This document shows, piece by piece, positions 568 through 32,267 of a DNA stretch of 34,969 bases (position 1 is the first letter of the stretch; the number at the start of each line of letters is the position of its first letter). The DNA comes from Ignavibacteriota bacterium. GTDB lineage: Bacteria; Bacteroidota; Ignavibacteria; UBA10030; UBA6906. The notes under the pieces were generated by a model. The model was given only the letters and a program-made list of their open reading frames with translations. It did not search any database and was not told where the DNA came from. The DNA lies in NCBI GenBank assembly GCA_003152875.1, contig PMBF01000018.1:75536-110504 (forward strand), given 5' to 3'. The translations under genes were made by a program, and so were the position numbers.

Positions 568-1470
568 ATGAGCTTGCTTGAAGAATACAAGGTTTCTCTG
601 AAAATGCCTGAGGTCGAGGAGATTCTCGACCTGATTTTCTACAGGCCGATCGCATTTGTTTTTGTCAAGCTTATCTATCGCCTCCCGGTCACCCCGAACC
701 AGGTGACGTTCCTGTCTCTCCTGGCGGGTTTGACTTCCGCTTGGTATATGCTTCCAGGCACCCGCGCGGGTTTCCTCTTCGCCGGCATATGGTACGGGGT
801 GGCCAACATCCTGGACTGTGGGGACGGGATGCTTGCCAGATTGCAGAAGAGCGGAACCCCGTTCGGCCGGCTGGTGGACGGGGTGGTAGACTGGGCGATC
901 AGCGTGGCGATTTTCGTCGGATTGGGCGTCGGGCTGAGTTCTGCCTCCGGCAACCCGTCCATCTGGTGGCTGGTAGCCGCAGGAGGATTCACCTCGGCCC
1001 TTCATGCAGTCATCTTCGATTACTATCAACAGGAATACATTTCAAACGTCCGTGGGACGAGGAATTTTCTCTCCCAGGAAGTCGTGAAGGCGCGCACGGA
1101 GCTGGACCGCCTGGCCGCCGCGGAAGCTGGATGGTGGTCACGGATCTGGCTTAAGGTCTATCTTGGATACCTCGGTTTGCAGGAAAGCTCCCAATTCAAG
1201 GCCGAGGGCGAACGACAGGCACCACCAGAGCTCTTCCGTCAGCACAACTACCGTGTCATGCAGTGGTGGACCCTTCTCGGAGCAACGACAAACCGAAGCG
1301 GATTGATCATCGCCTCGATCCTGGGAAGGCCGGATATCTTCTGCTGGATTGTCGCCATCCCCGGAAACCTTTTTCTCGTCTTCATGCTCTTCTGGCAGAG
1401 ACGCGTCCAGCAGCGTCTTGAGCTGGACCTGCGTCTGCAGACCGTTGACGGGGGTTCCTCCAAGGGGTAA
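568..1470 (+). CDS. CDP-alcohol phosphatidyltransferase family protein (first paralogue)
   Basis: Integral membrane enzyme of 300 residues that transfers a phospho-alcohol from a CDP-alcohol to an acceptor hydroxyl, with Mg2+ or Mn2+. The complete family motif D-x2-D-G-x2-A-R-x8-G-x3-D-x3-D is present at residues 83-108 (D83, D86, G87, A90, R91, G100, D104, D108), within several hydrophobic segments. The N-terminal PVTPNQVT stretch (40-47) is shared with the second paralogue at 3304, pointing to a duplication. It heads a tight + strand set: 41 bases separate it from the PLP enzyme gene. The charged segment after the motif (about residues 155-225) is probably cytoplasmic. Substrate and acceptor cannot be read from sequence. 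Start ATG 568 has only a weak upstream purine run. Confidence 0.9.
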   Translation: MSLLEEYKVSLKMPEVEEILDLIFYRPIAFVFVKLIYRLPVTPNQVTFLSLLAGLTSAWYMLPGTRAGFLFAGIWYGVANILDCGDGMLARLQKSGTPFGRLVDGVVDWAISVAIFVGLGVGLSSASGNPSIWWLVAAGGFTSALHAVIFDYYQQEYISNVRGTRNFLSQEVVKARTELDRLAAAEAGWWSRIWLKVYLGYLGLQESSQFKAEGERQAPPELFRQHNYRVMQWWTLLGATTNRSGLIIASILGRPDIFCWIVAIPGNLFLVFMLFWQRRVQQRLELDLRLQTVDGGSSKG

Positions 1471-1511
1471 CGCCCCATACTCTATTGTTGCATTCAGACT
1501 GAGAGGCAGTT

Positions 1512-2588
1512 ATGGGTCTGATTTATCTCGACCGCAATGAAAACCAGTACGGCCCTGCTCCTGCCTGCTACCAGGTCCTTCGCGAGGCCAATCTTGAACA
1601 GCTCAGCCTCTATTCCCGGGCCTATGCAACCGGCAAGAAGAGCGATCTCTCGGACCGCCTCAGCGCGGACCTCGGCATTCCGGAGTCCCGGGTCCTGCTA
1701 AGCTACGGGAGCGAGGACATGCTCAAGCAGGCGGTCCACTGTTACCTTCAGAAGGGGGAAACCATCCTCCTCCCCCACCAGTCGTGGTGGTACTACAAAT
1801 CCGTGGCAAAGGAGGTCTTCGGCACCGAGATCCACTACTCGATGAAGGAGCGCGGCGGCCTCTTCGTGTACGACCTGCAGGAGATCATCGACCAGTATGA
1901 CCGGCATCATCCGCAGGTGATCCTGATCGCCTCTCCGAACAACCCCACGGGCAACAGCATCGGGATGGACACACTCCACCGGCTGGTTGAGCATTGCGCT
2001 TTGTCGGTGATTGTGCTGGATGAAGCATATTTCGGCTTCGGCGGGGACGGGAACGGCCACATCAAGACCCTTCTTGACGCACACCCGCGGATGGTCATCC
2101 TCCGGACATTTTCGAAGTATTTCGCGCTGGCGGGGCTGCGCATCGGGTACTCCATTGTCGGCAGGGAGCTCGAGCAGCTCGTTGCGTTCAGCGCACGCTA
2201 CCTCGGCTACAACCAGTTGTCAGAGAAGATCGCCCTTGCTGCCCTGGACGACCCGGCCTACTATGCCCGTATAGCACAGGCGATGCGCGAGGACACGGAG
2301 ATGTATTTCCAGGAGTTTTCGCTGATCGAAGGATTCACACCGTTCCCATCTGAGGCCAACTTCATGCTGGTGCGTTACCCCCGGCTCCGGAAGAAGGAAC
2401 TCAAGGCGGGACTCGAAGGGTACGGCGTGGTAGTAAAGTTTCTCGATGATCCAGGACTCGAGGATTGCATCCGTATCACGATCGGGACGAAGGAGCAGAA
2501 TGTCCGCGTGATGGAAGCCTTCAGGGAGGTGGCAACCGGTGTGCCGCACCTGTCGACTGTCACACCGGAGATCTCCCAGGCGCGATGA
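1512..2588 (+). CDS. HisC/CobD-like PLP-dependent aminotransferase or decarboxylase
   Basis: 358-residue fold-type I PLP enzyme of the class I/II (histidinol-phosphate aminotransferase) family. Visible landmarks are the SPNNPTG loop at 141-147, LDEAYF at 169-174 (Asp170 to the PLP ring nitrogen), the Schiff-base lysine K202 in TFSKYFALAGLRIGY, and R210. HisC makes L-histidinol phosphate, but no other his gene is near. CobD, a close relative, decarboxylates threonine phosphate. Lying between CDP-alcohol transferases and a cytidylyltransferase-like gene, it more likely makes an amino-alcohol phosphate or aminated head-group precursor; this is inference. An AGAGG ribosome site lies just before ATG 1512. 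Its stop overlaps the next start (ATGA, 2585-2588), so translation is probably coupled. Confidence 0.88.
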   Translation: MGLIYLDRNENQYGPAPACYQVLREANLEQLSLYSRAYATGKKSDLSDRLSADLGIPESRVLLSYGSEDMLKQAVHCYLQKGETILLPHQSWWYYKSVAKEVFGTEIHYSMKERGGLFVYDLQEIIDQYDRHHPQVILIASPNNPTGNSIGMDTLHRLVEHCALSVIVLDEAYFGFGGDGNGHIKTLLDAHPRMVILRTFSKYFALAGLRIGYSIVGRELEQLVAFSARYLGYNQLSEKIALAALDDPAYYARIAQAMREDTEMYFQEFSLIEGFTPFPSEANFMLVRYPRLRKKELKAGLEGYGVVVKFLDDPGLEDCIRITIGTKEQNVRVMEAFREVATGVPHLSTVTPEISQAR

Positions 2589-3307
2589 CCGGCATCCTTC
2601 TCGCGGCAGGTATCGGCTCGCGTCTCCGGCCGCTGACGGAGAGCAGGCCCAAGTGCCTGCTTGAGGTGGGCGGAGTGTCACTGCTCGAACGCACTCTCCG
2701 CGCGTTTGTGGAGGCGGGAGTGGGCGAGTGTCTCCTGGTCACCGGCTACCTGCAGGGCATGGTGGAAGGAGCGGTACGCGGTTTCGGGCTACCTCTCCAG
2801 GTACGTTTCGTCCATAACGAGCGGTTTGGAGCCACCAACAACAATTACTCGCTCTGGCTGGCCGGCCTGCAGGCGGAGGGTGAGGACATCATTCTGCTGG
2901 ATGGGGACATTCTCTTCGAGACGGGCATCCTCCGTTCTCTTATTGGCGCGGCCGAGCCCGACGCTCTCGTTGTCCGGGCAGGCGGCCCCCTGGGGGCAGA
3001 GGAGATCAAGGTGGAACTGGACGGGGCGGGCGCCGTCAGGCGCATCGGCAAGGAGGTGGATCCAGGCTGCGCGGACGGCGAATCGATAGGCATCGAAAAA
3101 TTCTCAGCTCCCGCAGCGAGGGAGCTGTTCAGGATCCTCGGCCGGAGGAGGGAGCGCTACGAGTTCTACGAGGCTTCGTTCCAGGAGCTGATTGACGGCG
3201 GCGTCCGCCTGGCCGCGGTCTTCGCGGGGGGCATGGCGTGCATGGAGATCGACACACCGCAGGACCTTGAGGCGGCCGGCATTCTGGCAAGCACGCGCGG
3301 ATTATGA
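2585..3307 (+). CDS. LicC-like nucleotidyltransferase (probable CTP:phospho-alcohol cytidylyltransferase)
   Basis: 240 residues with a Rossmann-like nucleotidyltransferase fold: the nucleotide loop LLAAGIGSRLRPLT at 5-18, K23 in RPKCLLEV, and the metal-binding LDGD at 105-108. A TNNNYSLWLA segment (84-93) and a C-terminal EIDTPQDLEAA (221-231) resemble phosphocholine and aminoethylphosphonate cytidylyltransferases more than sugar-nucleotide enzymes. Expected reaction: CTP plus a phospho-alcohol gives a CDP-alcohol, the substrate of the flanking transferases. The start at 2585 is chosen because the conserved N-terminus begins there and ATGA overlaps the upstream stop; a longer upstream reading frame is not family-like. 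It also overlaps the next gene by 4 bases (3304-3307). The exact alcohol is unknown. Confidence 0.87.
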   Translation: MTGILLAAGIGSRLRPLTESRPKCLLEVGGVSLLERTLRAFVEAGVGECLLVTGYLQGMVEGAVRGFGLPLQVRFVHNERFGATNNNYSLWLAGLQAEGEDIILLDGDILFETGILRSLIGAAEPDALVVRAGGPLGAEEIKVELDGAGAVRRIGKEVDPGCADGESIGIEKFSAPAARELFRILGRRRERYEFYEASFQELIDGGVRLAAVFAGGMACMEIDTPQDLEAAGILASTRGL

Positions 3308-4164
3308 GCGGCACACCGGGGTATCGCTACTCCGTCTCCACCAAGTCCGGTCTCTCGGACGAGCTCATCAACACGTACCTTCTCCGGCCGATCGCAGGCC
3401 TCCTGGTGCGCGTGTTGTATTCCTCGCCGGTCACTCCCAACCAAGTCACCGTCTCGGCGATAGCGGCGGGCCTCGTCAGCGCTTTCTGCTATCTTCCGGG
3501 AACTCCGGGGCTCACCGCCGCGGCCGGTCTCTTCCTGACGCTCAAAGACCTCCTCGACTCGGCGGACGGCCAGCTCGCGAGAGCCAAGAACCTGTTCAGC
3601 CGCCGAGGACGTTTTCTGGACTCGATAGGCGACGTTGTGGTAAACTTCTGCGTGTTCCTGGCCATCGCCGCCGCGCTGAGCCGGGCGGGTGCACCGTGGC
3701 CGGTCTTTGCCGCCTCGATGGCCGCGTTCTTGTCGCTCACACTTCGTGTCTCCTACCACGTCTTCTACCAGACATCATACCTGCACCGCCGCAACGCCTA
3801 CTTGCTGAACCGGACATCGGAGGAAATCAGCGGCGAAGACCTCAGCGCCGACAGGGTGACGATCGCACTGCAGCGGACATTCCTTGTGCTGTACGGATGG
3901 CAAGACGCGCTGATGGCGGGGATCGATGCGTGGTCGAGAAACGGGAAGACCGTTGGAGATGAGGCCTGGTACGCCGACCCCGCGGGGCTGCGGTGGTCGG
4001 GGTTTCTGGGGCTGGGAACCGAGTTGTTCCTCCTGATGCTCTTCTCGCTTTGCAACGAGCTGGAAGACTACCTGGCGGTCAACCTCCTCGGCATGAATGC
4101 CGTGTGGGCGGGGTGCATCCTCTACCGCAAGAGGCTCGGCCGGAGGAACAGGCGGGACGCCTGA
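3304..4164 (+). CDS. CDP-alcohol phosphatidyltransferase family protein (second paralogue)
   Basis: 286-residue membrane protein with the intact CDP-alcohol transferase motif at residues 85-110 (D85, D88, G89, A92, R93, G102, D106, D110). It aligns with the gene at 568 through RPIA, PVTPNQVT and the LPGT turn, so the two are paralogues, but loops and the C-terminus differ, suggesting different acceptors or head groups. ATG overlaps the preceding stop (ATGA). The gene ends only 3 bases before the stop of the convergent gene at 4168, with no room for a separate terminator. Function is probably the final membrane step of a polar-lipid or phosphodiester synthesis; this rests on family and context only. 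Confidence 0.9.
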   Translation: MSGTPGYRYSVSTKSGLSDELINTYLLRPIAGLLVRVLYSSPVTPNQVTVSAIAAGLVSAFCYLPGTPGLTAAAGLFLTLKDLLDSADGQLARAKNLFSRRGRFLDSIGDVVVNFCVFLAIAAALSRAGAPWPVFAASMAAFLSLTLRVSYHVFYQTSYLHRRNAYLLNRTSEEISGEDLSADRVTIALQRTFLVLYGWQDALMAGIDAWSRNGKTVGDEAWYADPAGLRWSGFLGLGTELFLLMLFSLCNELEDYLAVNLLGMNAVWAGCILYRKRLGRRNRRDA

Positions 4165-21081: not shown

Positions 21082-22500
21082 TCAGCTCTTCTTTTTTGCG
21101 GTGAGCGCGTGCGTGGCGACGCCATAGTACATCTCGGCGGCTTCGCTTAGCGTTTCCGAAAGGGTCGGGTGGGGATGCACCGACTCCGCCAGGTCCCTGG
21201 CTGTTGCCCCCATTTCGATCGCCACAACGGCCTCGCTGATCAGGTCTCCGGCCCCCGCTCCGACAATGCCCACCCCCAGAATCCGCTCAGTGAGAGGATC
21301 GATGATAAGTTTTGTCAGACCGTCGGTCCGGTCGAAGCTCAGGGCTCGTCCCGAGGCCGACCAGGGGAATTTTGCGGTTTCGAACGTGAGTTTGCGTTCC
21401 CGCGCCTCCGCCTCCGTGACACCGCACCAGGCCAGCTCCGGGTCGGTAAACACAACGGCGGGGATGACGATGTGGTCGAACGCGCTGTGTTCTCCCATGA
21501 TCACCTCCACAGCGATGCGCGCCTCCTTGTATGCCTTATGCGCCAGCAAGACTCCGCCGGCGACATCTCCGATTGCGTACAAGTGCGGTTCATCCGTTTC
21601 CTGACGGTCATTGACCTTGATGAATCCTTTCTCGTCCAGCTTCACGCCAGTGTTCTCGAGCCCCAGGTTTGCGCTGTTGGGGGCACGTCCCACCGAAACC
21701 AGCACGCGATCGAAGAGCTCATCCTTCGTCTGTCCGTTCCATTCGGTTGTCACCTTGATCTGCTTCCCGCTGGTCGCCATCTTGTGTACCCTGGCGTTCA
21801 CCCTGACGTCTTCGAATTTCCGCTCCGCATACTTGATGATCGGACGCACGAGATCCGGATCGGCTCCCTGCAGGATGGTGTCGAGGGCTTCGACCAGCGT
21901 GATGTGGCTGCCCAGCGTGGCGTAGACCGTGCCCAGTTCCATGCCGATGTAGCCGCCTCCGACCACGAGGAGTCTCTGGGGGATCTCATCGATCTCGAGG
22001 GCCTCGGTCGACGTCATGATCCGCTTGTTTCCGAGGTCGAAGGCCGTCGGCATTGCCGCTCGTGATCCGGTTGCGATAATAGCCTGGTCAAACGTGAGAT
22101 ACTTCTGCCCCTTGCTTGTCTCCACCCGCAGCGTTTTCGCCTCTTCAAAATATCCCCGTCCCTCCATCACCTCCACCTTGCGCCTCTGGGCGATTGTCGA
22201 GACACCCTGCGCCAGCTTGTCCAGGATCGATTCTTTCCATGCGCGCATCTGGTTCAAGTCGATGGTCGGTTTTTCGAAATGCACGCCCCTGAATCCCGAT
22301 TCCTCGGCCTCGCTTATGAGTTTCGCCGTGTGCAGCAGAGCCTTAGACGGAATGCACCCGCGGTTCAGGCAGACCCCCCCCAGGCGCTTTTCCATTTCGA
22401 CCATGGTGACTTTTTTGCCGCGCTCCGCGGCGTAAAAAGCGGCCGTGTAACCTCCCGGCCCTGCTCCCAGCACCACGATGTCGGTCTTCGTCGATTTCAC
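21082..22500 (-). CDS. lpd: Dihydrolipoyl dehydrogenase (E3)
   Basis: 472 residues. This FAD flavoprotein reoxidises dihydrolipoyl groups with NAD+ in 2-oxoacid dehydrogenase complexes. The FAD loop GAGPGGYTAA (12-21), redox disulfide C44/C49 in GGVCLNRGCIPSK, the NAD-binding GGGYIGMELG, and the C-terminal HPHPTLSE base are all present. GTG 22500 is chosen because AAAGGA lies 5 bases upstream and the FAD fold starts directly after. It is third in the aceE-aceF-lpd order, 306 bases after aceF. Confidence 0.95.
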   Translation of the reverse strand: MKSTKTDIVVLGAGPGGYTAAFYAAERGKKVTMVEMEKRLGGVCLNRGCIPSKALLHTAKLISEAEESGFRGVHFEKPTIDLNQMRAWKESILDKLAQGVSTIAQRRKVEVMEGRGYFEEAKTLRVETSKGQKYLTFDQAIIATGSRAAMPTAFDLGNKRIMTSTEALEIDEIPQRLLVVGGGYIGMELGTVYATLGSHITLVEALDTILQGADPDLVRPIIKYAERKFEDVRVNARVHKMATSGKQIKVTTEWNGQTKDELFDRVLVSVGRAPNSANLGLENTGVKLDEKGFIKVNDRQETDEPHLYAIGDVAGGVLLAHKAYKEARIAVEVIMGEHSAFDHIVIPAVVFTDPELAWCGVTEAEARERKLTFETAKFPWSASGRALSFDRTDGLTKLIIDPLTERILGVGIVGAGAGDLISEAVVAIEMGATARDLAESVHPHPTLSETLSEAAEMYYGVATHALTAKKKS

Positions 22501-22806
22501 GGGATTCCTTTCGTTTCGTCTGATCGTCTTCGCAGTCGTCTTGGTGTCGATCAACCAATCCGGTGTTCTCAGGTCGTCAATGAAATGCCTGATCTCCCGG
22601 CGCCCGGCGCCTTCTCCCTCCGGGGTGCATTGCATCCGGGGCTTCCCGGGCCGTCAAGTGATCAGGCTGCGGGTTCAGGAAACAGCGCAAGCGCGTGGGT
22701 GTATGAGTACCCATGCGGGCAGCGGGACGATCTCTGCCGAACCTGGTCCCGCGAGCTTCCAGGTGTTCCCACCGGAAGCCTTCCCCTGGCCCGCACCTGG
22801 ACGCTG
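22501..22806. other. 306-base gap between aceF and lpd, no clear gene
   Basis: No recognisable coding or RNA feature. A short inverted repeat (ACCTGG 22741-22746, CCAGGT 22759-22764) lies 3' of aceF and could be a partial terminator. Length suggests lpd may have its own promoter, though no clear box pair is visible. Confidence 0.4.
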
Positions 22807-24147
22807 TCAGATCTTGATTTCCTTTTCGGTCATCCCTTCGATGTTCTTCACCAGATCGACCATGAACCTAGCCGCGTCGGCGCCGTCAATCAGACGGTGG
22901 TCGTACGAGAGACTAAGGGGAAGGACGGTGCGCCGCATGAGCTTCTTCTTTCTGAACAGCATCGCCTCCGAGCTTCGCGCCACGCCGAGAATCGCCACTT
23001 CGGGCTTGTTGATGATCGGGGTGAACACTCCGCTGCCGATCCCGCCCTGGTTGGATATCGTAAACGACCCCCCTTGCATCTCCTCGAGGGAGACCTTTCT
23101 CTCTCGTGTGCGCTCGGCCAGCTGTGCGAGTTCGACGGCCAGGTCAAGGAGCGACTTCTTGTCAGCATCACGAATGACCGGGACGATCAATCCCTGTTCG
23201 GTGTCTACGGCGATGCCGATGTGGAAATACTCCTTGAACACCACGTTCGTCCCTGTTTCATCGATGCTGGCATTGAAGAGGGGATGTTCCTGGAGGGTCT
23301 TTACCACCGCCTTGACCAGAAGGGGGGTCATGCTCAGGTGGGCTTTCTTCTTCTGGTATTGTGGCGCGAATTTCTTCCGCAGCTTCGTCAGCCCCGTGAT
23401 ATCGGCCTCATCGAACTGCGTCACATGAGGAATCGCATTCCAGGATTCCACCATGCGTCCGGCGATCGTGCGCCGGGTCACCGACAATTGCTCCGTGCGG
23501 ACGTGTCCCCATTTCGAAAAATCGACCCGCTGAGGAGAGGGCTTTTGCGCCGTGGGAGGGGCACCCGCACCGCCGGCCGTCTGGGACACCTCTGCTGCCC
23601 TCTGTAGCCGCTGGAGGTAGAGGCGCACATCTGAGGTGACAATACGCCCTCCCCGTTCGCTTCCCCTGACACGGGAGAGATCGATGCCGAGTTCCCGGGC
23701 CATCTTTCTCAACGTGGGAGAAGCGACGGGCGTTGCGCCTCCGTCGGATGGTTTCGCCGCGGTCTCCTGAGGAGCGAGCGTTGTGCCGGTGTCTCCCGTA
23801 TGCCGGGCAGCGGGCGGCGATCCCCCGGCGGCCCCGGCCGCTGCGGGTTCCACCGCCGGTTCACTGGACACTTCAATCTCTTCGGGGGCGTGACGGGGCA
23901 CCGGGGCGGGGGCAGCACCTTCGTTCAGCGTAAAAATCAGCTGCCCGACTTTTATGAGATCGCCATCCTTGACGTGCATCGCCATGATGGTTCCGGCGGC
24001 AGGCGATGGAATCGAAGCGACCGCCTTTTCGCTCTCCAGTTCCAGGATGGGCTGGTCCTTGTTGACCCTGTCGCCTACCTTGACAAAGATGCTGGCCACG
24101 GTTCCGGAATCCGCTCCTTCGCCGAGACGGGGTAATCTGACCTCCAT
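22807..24147 (-). CDS. aceF: Pyruvate dehydrogenase E2 (dihydrolipoamide acetyltransferase)
   Basis: 446 residues. One lipoyl domain (1-78, lipoylated K41 in ESEKAVAS), a Pro/Ala linker, an E1/E3-binding domain (about 130-170, TLRKMARELGIDLSRVRGSERGG) and the acetyltransferase domain (about 215-446) ending in YDHRLIDGADAARFM, where the His is catalytic. It passes acetyl groups to CoA and forms the complex core. ATG 24147 has AAGGAGG 8 bases upstream. It lies 28 bases after aceE. Having one lipoyl domain instead of E. coli's three is common outside Proteobacteria. The lipoate ligase gene at 26929 could modify K41. Confidence 0.95.
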   Translation of the reverse strand: MEVRLPRLGEGADSGTVASIFVKVGDRVNKDQPILELESEKAVASIPSPAAGTIMAMHVKDGDLIKVGQLIFTLNEGAAPAPVPRHAPEEIEVSSEPAVEPAAAGAAGGSPPAARHTGDTGTTLAPQETAAKPSDGGATPVASPTLRKMARELGIDLSRVRGSERGGRIVTSDVRLYLQRLQRAAEVSQTAGGAGAPPTAQKPSPQRVDFSKWGHVRTEQLSVTRRTIAGRMVESWNAIPHVTQFDEADITGLTKLRKKFAPQYQKKKAHLSMTPLLVKAVVKTLQEHPLFNASIDETGTNVVFKEYFHIGIAVDTEQGLIVPVIRDADKKSLLDLAVELAQLAERTRERKVSLEEMQGGSFTISNQGGIGSGVFTPIINKPEVAILGVARSSEAMLFRKKKLMRRTVLPLSLSYDHRLIDGADAARFMVDLVKNIEGMTEKEIKI

Positions 24148-24175
24148 GAGCAGTTGCCTCCTTGAGGAAGGGGTT

Positions 24176-26872
24176 TCACACAACGATGTACGGATACGGC
24201 TTTTCGGGGTCGACCCCCAGCTCCTTGATCGCCTTCTCGACCGCCTGTTTCTTCACCTGGCCCTTCTCAGCCAGCGCGTAGAGAGTGGCAATGACCACAG
24301 ACTCGGTATCAATCTCGAAATAGCGGCGAAGGCGCGTGCGGGTATCGCTTCTGCCGAAGCCGTCGGTCCCGAGTGTCGTAAGCCCTCCCGGGATCCACGG
24401 CGCGATCTGGTCGGGCACCATCTTCATGTAATCCGAGACGGCGACAAACACGCCGCTTTCCTTCCCCACGGTGGATTCCAGATACGACTTGCGCGGGGGT
24501 TCCGCCGGATGGAGCATATTCCAGCGGCGTGCCTTCAGGGCATCGTGACGGAGCAGCTTGTAGCTCGTCGCGCTCCAGACGTCGGCGGAGACATTGTACC
24601 GGTCAGCCAGGATCTTTTGTGCTGCCAGGGCTGAACGGAGAATGGGACCGCTCCCCAGGATGTGGGCCTTCAACCTGGTCCCGCCTGGACCGGGGGCGAA
24701 CCTGTACAGGCCTTTGAGGATCCCTTCCTCGATCCCCTGAGGCATGGGCGGCATGCTGTAGTTCTCGTTGTAGAGTGTCAGGTAGTAGAACACTTCCTCA
24801 CCATCCGCGTACATGCGCCGCAGGCCGTCCTGAATGATGACCGCCACTTCGTAGGCCCAGGCCGGGTCATAGGTCAGGAGGGTGGGAATGGTGCTTGCCA
24901 GGAGGTGGCTGTGGCCGTCTTCGTGTTGCAGTCCTTCCCCGTTCAGTGTGGTACGGCCGGCCGTACCGCCCAGCAGGAATCCTTTTGCCCTGATGTCGCC
25001 TGCCGCCCACATGAGGTCTCCGGTCCGCTGGAACCCGAACATCGAGTAGTAGACGTAGAAGGGGATCATATGGATTCCCCAAGACGCGTAGGAAGTCGCC
25101 GCCGCAATCCAGGATGACATAGCTCCGGACTCGGTGATCCCTTCTTCGAGGACCTGGCCGTCTTTCTTCTCGCTGTAGAAGAGCAGCGATTCCTTGTCCA
25201 CGGGCTCATACAGCTGCCCTTTCGGCGAGTAGATGCCGATCTCCCTGAACAAGGGGTCCATGCCGAACGTGCGCGCCTCGTCGGGGATGATGGGGACAAT
25301 GCGTTTCCCGATCGTCTTGCTCCGGAGCAACATGCTCAGCATCCTGACGAAGGCCATTGTCGTGGACACCTCGAACCGTTCCGACCCGCGAAGGAACTCG
25401 GAGAATGCGGCCAGCCTGGGGATATCCAGCCGTTCCGTGGACGCCCTGCGCCGCGGCAGGAAGCCTCCAAGCTCTTTACGGCGCTCATGGAGGTAGAGCG
25501 TTTCGGGGCTGTCGGAGGGAGGACGGTAGAACGGAGTTTCCGTGACCTCTTCGTCGCTGATGGGGATATCGAACCGCCTGCGGAACTCGCGCAGCTCCTT
25601 TTCGTTCAGTTTCTTCTGCTGGTGGGTTACGTTCCGTCCCTCGCCAGCCTCTCCCAGGCCGTACCCCTTGATGGTCTTTGCCAGGATCACCGTCGGTTCT
25701 CCGCGGTGCCCGATGGCCGCCTTGTAGGCGGCATGGACTTTTTTGGGATCGTGACCGCCCCTGAGCAGCTTGCTGATCTGCTCGTCCGAGAGATGGTTCA
25801 CCATATCGTAGAGCTCCGGATAACGGCCGAAGAAGTGCTTGCGCGTGTAACTCCCGGGGCTCACTGAGTATTTCTGGTAGTCGCCGTCCACGGCCTCTTC
25901 CATCCGCTTGAGCAGCAAGCCCTTGGAGTCCGAGGCGAAGAGCGGATCCCAGTCCGACCCCCAGATCACCTTGATGACGTTCCAACCGGCGCCGTGGAAA
26001 AGCATCTCGAGCTCCTGAATGATCTTGCCATTGCCGCGGACCGGTCCGTCGAGACGCTGGAGGTTGCAGTTGACTACCCAGATCAGGTTGTCAAGATGCT
26101 CGCGGCCGGCCACCGTCACCGCACCCTGGCTTTCCGGTTCGTCCATCTCTCCATCTCCCAGGAACGCCCACACTCTGGGTTCGTCGCCCTCCGTCAGGCC
26201 TCGCGCGCGGAGGTAGCGGTTGAAGCGCGCCTGGTAAATGGACATGATGGGTCCGAGTCCCATGGACACGGTCGGGAACTGCCAGAAATCCGGCATGAGA
26301 TAGGGATGGGGATAGGAGGACAGCCCGCCTCCCTCGGCCAGCTCTTGCCGGAAATTGTGAAGGTGATCGGCATCGATGCGTCCTTCGAGGAAGGCGCGCG
26401 CATAGATTCCGGGGACCCCATGCCCCTGGAAATAGACCATGTCGGCCTGGCGGCCGTTGTCTCCCCCGACGAAGAAATGATTGAACGCCACCTCGTAGAG
26501 TGTCGCCGAGGATGCGTAGGTGGAAATGTGACCTCCCAGACCGCTGTGGAGCCGGTTGGCTTTCACCACCATCGCCATGGCATTCCAGCGTGTATAGCTC
26601 TTGATCCTCCGCTCGATCTCGCGGTTTCCGGGATAGGGGGGTTCGTCTTCGACCGGGATAGTGTTAATGTACGGGGTGCTGACGGTATGGGGAATGGACA
26701 TCCCGGAGTCGCGGAGGCGCGTGACCAGCCGCTCAAGGAGGAGCGGGACCTGCGCATTCTCGCGGTCGCGCAGGACCGACTCGATCACGAACTCCAGTGC
26801 CTCGAGCCAGCGGTCGCGGTCCAAGCCGCCGTCTTGCGGAAGTGTCGTACGTTCAGTATGTTGCTTTTCCAC
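24176..26872 (-). CDS. aceE: Pyruvate dehydrogenase E1, homodimeric type
   Basis: 898 residues, close to the 887 of E. coli AceE. Thiamine-diphosphate enzyme that decarboxylates pyruvate and transfers the hydroxyethyl to E2. The TPP/Mg motif GDGEMDEPES is present, and the N-terminus (YINTIPVEDEPPYPGNREIERRI) matches AceE, whose N-terminal part binds E2. The start is GTG 26872 with GAGG just upstream. First gene of the aceE-aceF-lpd group. The divergent lipoate ligase gene begins 56 bases away, so their promoters overlap or interleave. Confidence 0.96.
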   Translation of the reverse strand: MEKQHTERTTLPQDGGLDRDRWLEALEFVIESVLRDRENAQVPLLLERLVTRLRDSGMSIPHTVSTPYINTIPVEDEPPYPGNREIERRIKSYTRWNAMAMVVKANRLHSGLGGHISTYASSATLYEVAFNHFFVGGDNGRQADMVYFQGHGVPGIYARAFLEGRIDADHLHNFRQELAEGGGLSSYPHPYLMPDFWQFPTVSMGLGPIMSIYQARFNRYLRARGLTEGDEPRVWAFLGDGEMDEPESQGAVTVAGREHLDNLIWVVNCNLQRLDGPVRGNGKIIQELEMLFHGAGWNVIKVIWGSDWDPLFASDSKGLLLKRMEEAVDGDYQKYSVSPGSYTRKHFFGRYPELYDMVNHLSDEQISKLLRGGHDPKKVHAAYKAAIGHRGEPTVILAKTIKGYGLGEAGEGRNVTHQQKKLNEKELREFRRRFDIPISDEEVTETPFYRPPSDSPETLYLHERRKELGGFLPRRRASTERLDIPRLAAFSEFLRGSERFEVSTTMAFVRMLSMLLRSKTIGKRIVPIIPDEARTFGMDPLFREIGIYSPKGQLYEPVDKESLLFYSEKKDGQVLEEGITESGAMSSWIAAATSYASWGIHMIPFYVYYSMFGFQRTGDLMWAAGDIRAKGFLLGGTAGRTTLNGEGLQHEDGHSHLLASTIPTLLTYDPAWAYEVAVIIQDGLRRMYADGEEVFYYLTLYNENYSMPPMPQGIEEGILKGLYRFAPGPGGTRLKAHILGSGPILRSALAAQKILADRYNVSADVWSATSYKLLRHDALKARRWNMLHPAEPPRKSYLESTVGKESGVFVAVSDYMKMVPDQIAPWIPGGLTTLGTDGFGRSDTRTRLRRYFEIDTESVVIATLYALAEKGQVKKQAVEKAIKELGVDPEKPYPYIVV

Positions 26873-27853: not shown

Positions 27854-28606
27854 TCAAATCCTCTCCACCCCGTTCTCCTGTATCCATCCCACCTTTCCGT
27901 CGGCGATATGGATCTTGACCCAGGATCCGACGCGGTCGATCAGCTGCACCCTGATCCCCGCATGAAGGACAAAGGCATCGCTGCTCTTCTCATCGGGGGA
28001 GTTTTTCACGGTGACGACCCCTGTCATCACCACGGCCTCGTCGGTGCGGTGCAGCTCGGCCACCCGGACATACATCAGGAGAAGGGTGCATGCCAGGAGC
28101 AGGACAGCAACACCTGCGCACCATAGTCCGGCAGTGCGCAGCAGGTACGTGCGTCCGAGGAGGACGACACAGAAGGCACCGAGGAACAGGACGAAACACC
28201 CGTAGCAAATCCACGTGATCGTCAGGAGCGAGAAGGAATCTTTCAGTCCCTGCCACCAATCCCACAGGAACAGGCGGGGGGCCGGTTCGATCTTGTCGGT
28301 GATCATCGTTCCGGCCAGCTGGAGATTGTGGCGGAGGTCCTCATCATCGGGCATCAGGCGGCGGGCGCGCTCATAGTTCAGGATGGCCCGCGCGATATTT
28401 CCTGACCGGTAATAGGCGTTGCCCAGATTGTAATACAGATCGCCCGCGACATACCCATTGTGGAGGATGGATTCGTACAGCCCGAGGGCCTTTCCCAGAT
28501 CGCCCTGCTGGTACGCCTGGTTGCCTTCCGCAAACAGTTGTTCCGGAGCCTGCGCGCTGAGCGCAGCCGGGAGACAGAGGAGAACTGCCAGGAGGACTCT
28601 GTTCAT
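27854..28606 (-). CDS. batE: BatE: TPR and SH3-like membrane protein
   Basis: 250 residues. Signal peptide (MNRVLLAVLLCLPAALSAQ), two TPR-like repeats (about 22-97, GNQAYQQGDLGKALGLYE and LYYNLGNAYYRSGNIARAI), two membrane helices (about 130-150 and 158-178), and a C-terminal SH3-like domain (about 190-250, VVTVKNSPDEKSSDAFVLHAGIRVQLID). This is the BatE layout. Last gene of the bat cluster; its ATG overlaps the batD stop by 4 bases. It converges with the lipoate ligase gene. The role in aerotolerance or envelope integrity is known only broadly. Confidence 0.92.
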   Translation of the reverse strand: MNRVLLAVLLCLPAALSAQAPEQLFAEGNQAYQQGDLGKALGLYESILHNGYVAGDLYYNLGNAYYRSGNIARAILNYERARRLMPDDEDLRHNLQLAGTMITDKIEPAPRLFLWDWWQGLKDSFSLLTITWICYGCFVLFLGAFCVVLLGRTYLLRTAGLWCAGVAVLLLACTLLLMYVRVAELHRTDEAVVMTGVVTVKNSPDEKSSDAFVLHAGIRVQLIDRVGSWVKIHIADGKVGWIQENGVERI

Positions 28607-30447
28607 TGCGCGTTGAGCGTCCGTTCAAGTTCCACGATGATGCGGCTGGCTTCCTCGTATGCCCGCTGCATGGCCGGCCGGTCCACGCTGGTCGGTGCGA
28701 ATCTCGCCATGTCACATGTCTCGAGGAGCGTGCGAAGCGCCTGTACGAGAGGCGCAGGGGTACCGGCATCGGCGAGGGCCCCGGCGGCCCGCTCGACCGA
28801 AAACTCCGCCTGGGGAATGCCGAGCTTGTCCCCAAGGTACTGCCAGAGGGCGCCTGCGGTCTCCGAGAAAAATCTCGGAGCGGACTTTGAGGCGCCGCCG
28901 GCTTTCGCACCGGTCTCCCGCAGCAGCCGTTCCCCCGTCTTGAGGCGTTTACGCGCCTCTCCGATGGCGCGCCGGTTTCGGTATCCCGCAACGTCGGAGA
29001 GTGCCGCGCGTCTGTTGCTGGCATAGACATAGGCTCCCGCGGCACCGGCAAGCGGAAGCAGGAGCAGCAGGACGAAACCACTGCTGTTGTACAGATACTC
29101 CCCCTGCCGTACAAACGCCGCCGGCCGTACCTTGATGAAGCGGATATCCTGGTTCAGCAGGCGGACGTCTTCCCTTCCCCCTCCGGCCACAAGCGGGACC
29201 GCGGGGGCGGTTCCCTGTTCGACGTTCAGCTCGATCTCCGGTGAGCGGAGCCTGATATACTCCCGCCGGTTCAGGTCAAAGTATGAAAAGGTTACGGGTT
29301 TGATGACTTTCATCCCGGGGTACCGCGGGATGAGGAGGTACTCGAACACCTTGCTGCCGGTGATCCGCTCCCCCTGCCGGTTGATGATTTCCTGGACCTT
29401 GGGGCTGTACTGCTCGAAGTCGGCGGGAAGCTCCAGAGCCGGGGCTTCAAGGAGCTTGATGTTTCCCGTCCCTGACACGGTGACCTTCAGGGAAACCGGT
29501 TCGTTGGTCCGGGTGGTCTTCTTGTCTACGGAGGTGGACATCGCGAACTGCCCCACGGCCCCCTTGAAATCCGGAGGGGCGCCTCCGGGGAGGGGATCGA
29601 CCATCACCTTCACAGGCTCGCTGCGGGCTGCGTAGTTCGTTGTCCGGCCGAAGGGATCACGGAAAAAGGCGTCAAAGGGATCGACCGACCGTGGGGCCGG
29701 CATTTGAATCTGGGTCTGGAGAGTCATAGGACTGATCTCCAGTGAGCCCGACTGCGTTGGGAAGAGGGCGGTCCGCTTGATGATTCCCACCCGGTACTGT
29801 TTGCCGTTGACCGTTTCCGTGCTCAGCTGGACATCTTTCGGGGTCTCCACATCCTCCCCCCAGAATCCGGTCATGGTGGGTGTTTTCTCGACTGCATAGT
29901 TCATCACCGTGAGCCGGGTGTAGAGCTTAAAGGAAAGATTGATCTGTTCCCCCTGCATCACGTGCGTCTTGCTGACGATAGCCCGGAGGAACACATTCTC
30001 AGCAATCTGTCCGCCCGCATTGTCAGGCGCGGATTGCTGCGCCCGCTGGGGGTTCTTCACCACGTCGAGGACAATAGGATTTGTCCGGAGGGTTTTGCCA
30101 CCGACATCGATCGTTGCCGGCCCGATGGAATACTTCCCTGCATCTCTGGCCTGCACCATGCAGCTGTACGTCACCGACGATGACATGGCCCCGTTCATGA
30201 ACTGCATGCTCGTCGACTGGTTAGGGCCGGACAGGGTGCGGAATCGGCTTAGGTCGGGAAGCTTGAAATTCTTCCCCCCACCGGTGCCGGCATTGGCGAG
30301 GGTGAAGGAGATGGTCAATTCCTCACCGACCCCCACCGGGTTCCGGTCGACCGATGCCTGGAACGAGGGATCCTGTGCCGCCGCCCGAAACGTCCCCGTC
30401 AGGACGAGGAACGCCAGGGCGTATCGTAGCCTATGGAAGCCAGCCAT
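28603..30447 (-). CDS. batD: BatD: oxygen-tolerance envelope protein
   Basis: 614 residues. Signal peptide (about 1-25), a large extracytoplasmic beta-rich part with the family start FQASVDRNPVGVGEELTISFTL (29-50) and repeated Ig-like segments (about 27-420), one transmembrane helix (about 457-476), then a helical cytoplasmic tail (about 480-614). Matches BatD/DUF-type oxygen-tolerance proteins. The gap to batC is 6 bases; no separate ribosome site is visible apart from an AAGGA inside the batC end, consistent with coupled translation. The stop overlaps batE. Confidence 0.92.
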   Translation of the reverse strand: MAGFHRLRYALAFLVLTGTFRAAAQDPSFQASVDRNPVGVGEELTISFTLANAGTGGGKNFKLPDLSRFRTLSGPNQSTSMQFMNGAMSSSVTYSCMVQARDAGKYSIGPATIDVGGKTLRTNPIVLDVVKNPQRAQQSAPDNAGGQIAENVFLRAIVSKTHVMQGEQINLSFKLYTRLTVMNYAVEKTPTMTGFWGEDVETPKDVQLSTETVNGKQYRVGIIKRTALFPTQSGSLEISPMTLQTQIQMPAPRSVDPFDAFFRDPFGRTTNYAARSEPVKVMVDPLPGGAPPDFKGAVGQFAMSTSVDKKTTRTNEPVSLKVTVSGTGNIKLLEAPALELPADFEQYSPKVQEIINRQGERITGSKVFEYLLIPRYPGMKVIKPVTFSYFDLNRREYIRLRSPEIELNVEQGTAPAVPLVAGGGREDVRLLNQDIRFIKVRPAAFVRQGEYLYNSSGFVLLLLLPLAGAAGAYVYASNRRAALSDVAGYRNRRAIGEARKRLKTGERLLRETGAKAGGASKSAPRFFSETAGALWQYLGDKLGIPQAEFSVERAAGALADAGTPAPLVQALRTLLETCDMARFAPTSVDRPAMQRAYEEASRIIVELERTLNAQ

Positions 30448-30453
30448 GTGTTG

Positions 30454-31218
30454 TTACCAGTCCTTGTCTGTCTTTGCCTGCCCGGCAGGCCGGGCCCGCA
30501 GCTTCTTCTGCACGTCCTTCTCGCTGTTCTTCAGTACCTCCAGAATCCGCTCCGCATCCGCCCGCGACATCCTCTTGTCCTGTTGCTGCTGTCGGTTCTG
30601 AGCCTGGTTCTGCTGATCCGGCGGGTTCTGCTTGTTTTTGTCCTGATTCTTATCCTGATTTTTATCTTTGTTTTGATCCTGGTTCTGTTTCTGATTGTCC
30701 TGCTTATTCTTGTCGTTCTTCTTTTTGTCGTTCTTGTTCTTGTCGTTCTTGTTCTTGTCGTTTTTGTTCTGTTGCTGTTGTTGCTGCTGCTGTCGAAGTT
30801 TTTCCAGCGCGTACGAAAGGTTGTACTTGGCTTCCTCGTCGCGGGGATTGAGTTTCAGGGCATCGACGTACGAACGCACGGCGTCTTCGTAGCGCTGGTC
30901 GGCCATATGCGTGTTGCCGATATTATACCAGGCGTAGGCTTTGGTGTCCCGTTGTTCCGCCTTTTGCAGCGCCAGGTCGAATTCCTTCGCCGCTTCCTCG
31001 TTCTTCCCCTGTTTAGCGAGAGCGTTGCCGAGGTTGAAATGCCCCTGCACCAGGTCCTTCTCTTTCTCGAGCGCTTTCCGGTAGTTCACCTCCGCATCGG
31101 CGAACTTGCGGTCCAGATAGAGGTCGTTCCCTCCGTTGACCAACGAGCGGACAGACTGCGCGGGCGCCGACTGGACGGCCAGTATGAGAGCAGTCACCAT
31201 CCACCATTTCCTCATCAT
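30454..31218 (-). CDS. batC: BatC: TPR protein with Gln/Asn/Lys/Asp low-complexity tract
   Basis: 254 residues. N-terminal signal-like segment (WWMVTALILAVQSAPA), TPR repeats (about 24-140; GHFNLGNALAKQGKNEEAAKEF, AYAWYNIGNTHMADQRYEDA), a 70-residue Q/N/K/D-only tract (143-213) and a conserved BatC end (MSRADAERILEVLKNSEKDVQKKLRA). The start ATG 31218 overlaps the batB stop by 4 bases. The tract is coded by short repeated triplet-like units and is probably length-variable between strains. BatC is thought to act with the VWA proteins BatA/BatB in a membrane complex. Confidence 0.9.
   Translation of the reverse strand: MMRKWWMVTALILAVQSAPAQSVRSLVNGGNDLYLDRKFADAEVNYRKALEKEKDLVQGHFNLGNALAKQGKNEEAAKEFDLALQKAEQRDTKAYAWYNIGNTHMADQRYEDAVRSYVDALKLNPRDEEAKYNLSYALEKLRQQQQQQQQNKNDKNKNDKNKNDKKKNDKNKQDNQKQNQDQNKDKNQDKNQDKNKQNPPDQQNQAQNRQQQQDKRMSRADAERILEVLKNSEKDVQKKLRARPAGQAKTDKDW
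30580..30792 (-). repeat. Low-complexity Q/N/K/D coding tract in batC
   Basis: Eight Gln, then NKNDK-type units (NKNDKNKNDKNKNDK) and Q/N-rich runs, in codons made mostly of AAC, AAG, GAC and CAG. The A-rich coding strand contrasts with the GC-rich neighbours and is prone to slippage. Confidence 0.85.
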
Positions 31219-32267
31219 GCGATCTCCTCCTCCCGACGCCTGAGCGGGTTCCAGTGCGCCAGCCAGCGAGGGCGTTTTTCCGATATCAGGATTTCAAGCA
31301 CCATGAGCACAATCACGGGCACCAGGAAATACTGAAACCGGTCTTCATAGTCCGTGAATTGCCTGACGCCGAACTCCCTCTTCTGCAGGGCGTTGATGTT
31401 CTTATAGATCTCGTCCAGTTCGTCCTGGTTGGCTGTCCCCCGGAAGTACTTGCCATTCCCGATCTCGGCGATCCGCGTCAGCGAGGTCTCATCCAGTTTC
31501 GACACCACAACACTTCCCAGTCGGTCCCGCTTGAAGTCCACCTGCAGGCCGGAGCTGTTGTAGACCGGAATAGGGGCGCCCGTGGGGGAGCCCATGCCGA
31601 CCGTGTAGAGCAGGATTCCCTTGGCCGAGGCCTCGCGCGCGGCCTCGAGCGCATCTCCTTCGGTGTTCTCCCCGTCGGTGATGACAACCACAACTTTAGA
31701 GGTCTGCTCCTTGAAATCGAACGATTCCATCGCCCGTTCGATTGCGGCTCCGATCGCGGTGCCGGGGACAGGGACGGCATCGACATCCACCACGTCGAGG
31801 AAGAGGTTTGCAGCGCTGTAGTCCGTCGTGAGCGGGAACTGAATGAACGCCTCACCCGCAAAGACAATCATGCCGATCCGGTCCCCGGCCAGACGGTTGA
31901 TGAGGTTTCGGATCTCCAGTTTCGCCTTCTCGAGGCGATTCGGCTTGATGTCCTCGGCCTTCATGCTCAGGGAGACGTCAAGCGCAATGAACAGGTCCAC
32001 ACCCTCCTGTTTCACTTCCTGGAGTCTTGTCCCGATCTGCGGATTGGCCAGGGCGACCATGAGGAACCCAACCGCACCGCACAGAAGGACGAACTTCAGG
32101 AGGCGTCTCGCCCCGCTCGCCCGCTCCGCGAGCCGTGCGAAGAGCTCCGGGGAGGCGAATCTCTTGACGGCGTTGGTCCGGAGCCGGACGAAGGTCAGGT
32201 ACAGCACGACCATCAGCGGCACGAGGGCCAGCCCGTACAGGTATTCGGGGTGTACGAAGCGGATCAT
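31215..32267 (-). CDS. batB: BatB: VWA-domain membrane protein
   Basis: 350 residues. Two N-terminal hydrophobic helices (about 8-27 and 57-75), a von Willebrand A domain (about 90-290) with metal site D97-x-S99-x-S101 (LDVSLS) and the ITDGENTEGD strand, then a C-terminal helix (about 311-328). The intact MIDAS suggests metal-dependent ligand binding on the periplasmic face. Order and overlap (4 bases with batC, 1 base with batA) put it in the bat operon. BatA and BatB are paralogues; this is the copy lacking the N-terminal MWNPD-like start. Confidence 0.92.
   Translation of the reverse strand: MIRFVHPEYLYGLALVPLMVVLYLTFVRLRTNAVKRFASPELFARLAERASGARRLLKFVLLCGAVGFLMVALANPQIGTRLQEVKQEGVDLFIALDVSLSMKAEDIKPNRLEKAKLEIRNLINRLAGDRIGMIVFAGEAFIQFPLTTDYSAANLFLDVVDVDAVPVPGTAIGAAIERAMESFDFKEQTSKVVVVITDGENTEGDALEAAREASAKGILLYTVGMGSPTGAPIPVYNSSGLQVDFKRDRLGSVVVSKLDETSLTRIAEIGNGKYFRGTANQDELDEIYKNINALQKREFGVRQFTDYEDRFQYFLVPVIVLMVLEILISEKRPRWLAHWNPLRRREEEIA

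Follow-up and report, generated by a model that had tools for sequence, protein, structure and literature searches.

Can a bacterium make the cytidine diphosphate (CDP) derivative of an amino-alcohol head group without a choline- or ethanolamine-type kinase? This question is raised by four plus-strand genes, here called cdpA, plp, ntp and cdpB, which occupy positions 568-4164 of the window, that is, the 34,969-nt stretch of contig PMBF01000018.1 that we analysed (Ignavibacteriota host; genome of 3.96 Mb, 97% complete). The organisms that carry the nearest loci place the host as Ignavibacteria-like within the Bacteroidota/Chlorobiota group. Judged from sequence, plp and ntp probably supply a CDP-amino-alcohol. 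More tentatively, the cassette may represent an undescribed CDP-2-amino-alkanol pathway, with CDP-serinol made from dihydroxyacetone phosphate as the likeliest form, which would add a new amino-alcohol phosphate head group to the lipids of Ignavibacteria and related bacteria and, by way of LicD or CDP-glycerol-type transferases, to surface glycans in gut Bacteroidota.

Organisation of the cassette

Open reading frames and sequence analysis gave the following layout. The outer genes, cdpA (568-1470, plus strand, 300 aa) and cdpB (3304-4164, plus strand, 286 aa), encode two CDP-alcohol phosphotransferases (Pfam PF01066, 48 and 46 bits, respectively), the first of them a membrane enzyme. Between them lie plp (1512-2588, plus strand, 358 aa), a fold-type I pyridoxal phosphate (PLP) enzyme of a HisC-derived clade (Aminotran_1_2, 126 bits), and ntp (2585-3307, plus strand, 240 aa with the ATG at 2585 as start), a predicted cytidylyltransferase resembling LicC and PntC (NTP_transf_3, 49 bits). 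All four proteins exceeded the curated Pfam cut-offs. A gap of 41 bases separates cdpA from plp, and the cassette stands isolated, with a phosphofructokinase gene diverging upstream and a coiled-coil gene converging downstream. The signature D-x2-D-G-x2-A-R-x8-G-x3-D-x3-D is complete in both phosphotransferases (in cdpA as D83..D86 G87..A90 R91..G100..D104..D108) and invariant in the alignments (50/50 cdpA rows and 12/12 cdpB rows). Open reading frames, Pfam matches and alignments thus confirm the initial annotation of this locus, made from the letters alone, which had described a four-gene cassette with complete transferase motifs and with its last three genes overlapping by 4 bases (ATGA at both plp/ntp and ntp/cdpB).

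Conservation and co-occurrence

Co-occurrence was followed in 60 related genomes and gene arrangement in 80 loci, the latter chiefly from Ignavibacteria and also from Bacteroidales, Calditrichota and Aminicenantes. Cassette-type plp was called in the 60 genomes by a family profile, which separated its members (356-539 bits) from the next matches (at most 178 bits). The ntp family was present in 31 genomes, in one of these in two pieces, and cassette-type plp in 29. Both genes occurred together in 29 genomes, ntp only in two, plp only in none and neither in 29 (Fisher test, p = 4e-15, uncorrected for kinship), and in 28 of the 29 genomes having both, plp and ntp lay together on one contig. The most frequent arrangements among the 80 loci were plp-cdpA-ntp (36), cdpA-ntp (10), plp-ntp-cdpB (9) and plp-ntp (6); rarer were cdpA-plp-ntp-cdpB (2), cdpA-plp-ntp (1) and a double plp (1), and ntp stood without the others in 15.

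Where ntp has no plp nearby, a cassette-type plp is encoded elsewhere in 18 of the 19 genomes concerned, and it adjoins a cdpA in six of nine such split genomes examined, indicating that the functions are retained jointly despite the broken operon. Gene order, whose loss in relatives would have told against the initial proposal, is conserved along with co-occurrence in dozens of genomes; the cassette is therefore a real module under selection and not a set of chance neighbours.

The nucleotidyltransferase

The best PDB matches of the ntp profile were LicC (1jyk, 2e-26) and PntC (6pd1, 1e-25), over profile positions 2-235. The concern that ntp might prove to be a sugar-1-phosphate enzyme did not materialise. 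The metal site D106-x-D108, Y195 and E196 are invariant in 75/75 rows. The active site of PntC positions Glu196 and Glu104 for contact with the amine group of aminoethylphosphonate, a primary amine, and their counterparts in LicC are Asp192 and Asp105 (PMC6697681). E196 and D106 of ntp align with these pairs, and such acidic residues would fit, short of proof, a small phospho-amino-alcohol substrate.

A probable donor module with exchangeable transferases

In some genomes plp-ntp is followed by a different kind of transferase. A LicD-family gene takes this position in Odoribacter (locus L104, with genes for the capsule protein Wzi and a glycosyltransferase close by) and in a Prevotellaceae genome (L135), and a gene of the CDP-glycerol:poly(glycerophosphate) transferase type (Glyphos_transf) does so in L112 (Dysgonomonas) and L123 (a second Prevotellaceae genome). 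Transferases of the latter type use CDP-linked donors. LicD likewise uses a CDP-linked donor (PMC10434233). Because plp-ntp adjoins these transferases instead, the pair looks like a self-contained CDP-donor module. We infer that plp and ntp make a CDP-linked phospho-alcohol and that the adjoining transferase sets its destination, lipid or glycan.

The coupling of the two functions finds independent support in Marinilabiliaceae bacterium JC040, in which a 598-aa fusion of a second ntp with a PLP domain (L141:3016-4809) is encoded beside the cassette's plp-ntp pair. The best match of its PLP domain was 6oux, a threonine-phosphate-decarboxylase-like protein (147 bits). An octopine-dehydrogenase-like gene adjoins the fusion. 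The initial four-gene scheme is supported in part; what it missed were the LicD and CDP-glycerol-type variants and, in the host, a serine palmitoyltransferase and the enzymes PssA and Psd (see below).

The PLP enzyme and the proposed route

The plp protein scored 220.5 bits against the hisC model TIGR01141 (cut-off 276.55) and 126.7 bits against the CobD model (cut-off 290.55), that is, below both thresholds. Its lysine K202 and the residues D170, Y173, N144, R210 and R321 are invariant in 53/53 rows. Structure prediction, proposed at the outset as a way to choose between HisC and CobD, did not discriminate: the AlphaFold2 (AF2) model (pLDDT 92.4) matched HisC with a Z score of 38 and CobD with 36.5, values so nearly equal that the fold alone leaves this choice open. 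A tree of 19 cassette proteins with solved HisC and CobD structures and the decarboxylase-like 6oux, a small sample with long branches, placed the cassette proteins in a single clade (100/100) on the HisC side, split from the CobD/6oux clade with support of 100/99; plp falls outside the clade of CobD (1lc5, 3fkd) and 6oux. The cassette proteins also carry the motifs RITIGT and YLGYN, where CobD, 3fkd and 6oux differ (e.g. W-[SNA]-[IV]-N). Two further genes of the host pass the HisC cut-off (316 and 310 bits), which rules out plp as its only HisC, an outcome that the initial annotation had named as fatal to its proposal.

HisC is known to convert an acetol phosphate into a 2-amino-alkanol phosphate and back. 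Since the cassette clade lies on the HisC side and HisC chemistry yields 2-amino-alkanol phosphates, a transaminase making serinol phosphate is the preferred reading of plp. In the proposed route, plp would convert a phosphorylated central metabolite directly into a phosphorylated 2-amino-alcohol, preferably by transamination of an acetol-type phosphate and most simply from dihydroxyacetone phosphate to serinol phosphate, a conversion of the HisC type that is known from Cj1437 of Campylobacter jejuni. This product and cytidine triphosphate would be joined by ntp into a CDP-amino-alcohol, from which cdpA and cdpB would pass the phospho-amino-alcohol to two alcohols, either lipids or others within reach at the membrane, for example diacylglycerol or dihydroceramide. 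No choline/ethanolamine-type kinase would be needed. In outline, the data support the route first proposed for the locus, a Kennedy-like path through a CDP-alcohol that begins with a PLP enzyme and does without a kinase: the genes are conserved together, choline/ethanolamine kinase (PF01633) was found in 0/60 related genomes, and ntp is LicC/PntC-like with the conserved Glu. Given the general route, serinol phosphate has somewhat less than an even chance of being the product of plp and ethanolamine phosphate, formed by decarboxylation, perhaps a chance of one in three at best, the remainder falling to another amino-alcohol. Gene content, conservation, co-occurrence, families, folds and catalytic residues are observations; every substrate and product named here we infer.

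Decarboxylation forms a sub-case of the general route, and its likelihood is contained in that of the general route rather than added to it. Here plp would be a phosphoserine decarboxylase, ntp would turn the resulting ethanolamine phosphate into CDP-ethanolamine, and the CDP-alcohol enzymes would form phosphatidylethanolamine (PE) or ceramide phosphoethanolamine. Cj1436 of Campylobacter jejuni does decarboxylate serine phosphate to ethanolamine phosphate (PMC12409886), the L141 fusion joins an ntp to a 6oux-like domain right beside a cassette plp-ntp pair, a small primary amine would suit Glu196, which ntp shares with PntC, and Bacteroides, which is rich in ethanolamine phosphoceramide, gave no match to a query with a eukaryotic synthase (PMC8791184). 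The tree and the two motifs, on the other hand, set the cassette proteins apart from the CobD/decarboxylase clade, and PE is already supplied by PssA and Psd. On this evidence we regard decarboxylation as rather unlikely, and the CobD-like decarboxylation of phosphoserine suggested by the initial annotation, weakened by the grouping of plp with HisC rather than with CobD or 6oux, is not favoured.

The phosphotransferases, their acceptors and other explanations

The two phosphotransferases are paralogues (31% over 181 aa), and the presence of two such enzymes suggests two acceptors. The best PDB matches of the cdpA profile (A3) were AF2299 and PIP synthase, with CEPT1/CHPT1 matching weakly. The AF2 model of cdpB (pLDDT 83) was closest to AF2299 (Z 20.6, root-mean-square deviation 2.4, 193 aligned residues), followed by IPCT-DIPPS (Z 17.8) and by CHPT1/CEPT1 (Z 10-12).

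With regard to the lipids of the host, a genome search for psd and pssA, recommended when the locus was first described, found both, so that ordinary PE synthesis is present and the cassette product is unlikely to be the sole source of PE. The host also encodes a serine palmitoyltransferase (L178:1501-2646, equivalent to G000:C108:87099-88244; best PDB match 3a2b, 378 bits) and therefore probably makes sphingolipids. Diacylglycerol and sphingoid lipids may thus both be on hand as acceptors.

The resemblance of cdpB to AF2299 and IPCT-DIPPS would also suit a CDP-inositol or di-inositol-phosphate type of pathway, and a similar cluster of nucleotidyltransferase and CDP-alcohol phosphotransferase genes beside myo-inositol-1-phosphate synthase (MIPS, PF01658) has been proposed in Bacteroidetes (PMC9246714). 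MIPS was, however, not found in the host genome and is present in 7/60 relatives, just one of which bears the cassette; an inositol pathway would moreover leave the strictly co-occurring PLP enzyme without a role, and we consider it improbable. Still less probable is the phosphonolipid route that the initial annotation offered as its alternative, in which plp would aminate phosphonoacetaldehyde and ntp would make CMP-aminoethylphosphonate: ntp is nearly as close to PntC as to LicC, but phosphoenolpyruvate (PEP) mutase was found neither in the host genome nor over the cut-off in the 60 relatives (the best weak matches, in L147 and L148, lie among aconitase- and isocitrate-dehydrogenase-like genes), and PntC's own transaminase is of class V whereas plp is HisC-like; the route would now require a C-P bond-forming enzyme that has escaped recognition. 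That a spare HisC (as the 220 bits of plp against the hisC model might suggest), a sugar nucleotidyltransferase and two lipid enzymes merely lie side by side with no pathway between them is scarcely credible in view of the two further HisC genes, the co-occurrence of plp with ntp and the retention of plp in nearly all split genomes.

Several points nevertheless weigh against the route through a CDP-amino-alcohol and serinol phosphate. Since cdpB is nearer to AF2299 and DIPP synthase than to the eukaryotic CDP-ethanolamine enzymes, the acceptor may be something other than diacylglycerol. Formation of PE through a CDP-amino-alcohol would duplicate the host's PssA and Psd. Two genomes (G030, L064:7397-9110; G058, L151:7975-9706) carry ntp-cdpB with no plp in the genome. 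The tree speaks for a transaminase, but families related to plp use a common fold for different chemistry, some transaminating and others decarboxylating. Serine palmitoyltransferase was also considered as a pointer to a ceramide acceptor and dropped, its distribution being independent of the cassette: genes of this type occur in 54/60 relatives (27/29 with plp and 27/31 without), and one genome (G035) has plp-ntp-cdpB and no match of this type.

Neighbouring genes

About 15 of the 80 loci encode, close to the cassette, a member of a LysE-type translocator family (e.g. L097:4193-5008, L115:7736-8551 and L129:4442-5272) that could serve export or flipping of the product. A rhomboid protease gene together with an IspG (GcpE) gene follows ntp in roughly 18-20 loci (e.g. 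L138:7750-10575), and the ntp-cdpB pairs of G030 and G058 stand behind UvrD-like helicase pieces. In four Ignavibacteria genomes, gap and pgk, recognised by eye in their N-terminal sequences, are found immediately upstream of an unlinked plp-cdpA pair (L171:8305-11714, L173:4705-8305, L174:5325-8856 and L175:5172-8579), and pfk adjoins the cassette in the window and in four near relatives. The link to triose phosphates that these neighbours might imply is weak, because it is seen only among close relatives. In the window itself, the diverging phosphofructokinase gene has its start at 3-398, and farther downstream lie genes for pyruvate dehydrogenase E1-E2-E3 (21082-26872) and a BatA/BatD-like VWA-TPR cluster (27854-32267), all on the minus strand.

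Significance and comparison with known systems

A published description of this gene set was not found in the open-licence PMC literature. If the proposed route is true, the cassette is the bacterial equivalent of a Kennedy pathway without a kinase, making a CDP-amino-alcohol from central metabolites and feeding it to three kinds of transferase. It would then offer a way of placing amino-alcohol head groups on the lipids and capsules of Bacteroidota (Odoribacter, Dysgonomonas and Prevotellaceae), a phylum whose ethanolamine phosphoceramide enzyme was not identified in PMC8791184, and would correct the annotations of plp as histidinol-phosphate aminotransferase and of ntp as phosphocholine cytidylyltransferase.

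Like the cassette, the eukaryotic Kennedy pathway and the Lic-1 system (LicA-LicC-LicD) lead from a phospho-alcohol through a cytidylyltransferase to a CDP-alcohol, which is used by a CDP-alcohol phosphotransferase or LicD. Unlike both, the cassette has a PLP enzyme in place of the kinase, which is missing from all 60 genomes, and its phosphotransferases are nearer to AF2299 than to CEPT1/CHPT1 of the Kennedy pathway. The PntC pathway (PMC6697681) also couples a LicC-like cytidylyltransferase to a PLP enzyme, gives a surface-bound product and has the amine-contacting Glu in common with ntp; the cassette differs in having no PEP mutase, a HisC-like rather than class V PLP enzyme, and unfused genes. 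In C. jejuni, Cj1437 converts dihydroxyacetone phosphate into serinol phosphate (PMC12409886), and Cj1436 and Cj1437, compared here by description, likewise produce phosphorylated amino-alcohols destined for a surface structure; there, however, direct amidation joins the phospho-amino-alcohol to glucuronic acid, and the described route is without CDP activation (PMC12409886). The same Kennedy-like order of enzymes has been proposed, as yet unconfirmed, for the MIPS-adjacent cluster of NTP transferase, CDP-alcohol phosphatidyltransferase and HAD genes in Bacteroidetes (PMC9246714), where MIPS provides inositol phosphate and the cassette instead has its PLP front end. AF2299 and IPCT/DIPPS have fold and motif in common with cdpB at an identity of 21-22%, and the host is without an inositol-phosphate synthase. 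A HisC-descended PLP front end, the lack of a kinase and the exchange of transferases set the cassette apart from these known pathways.

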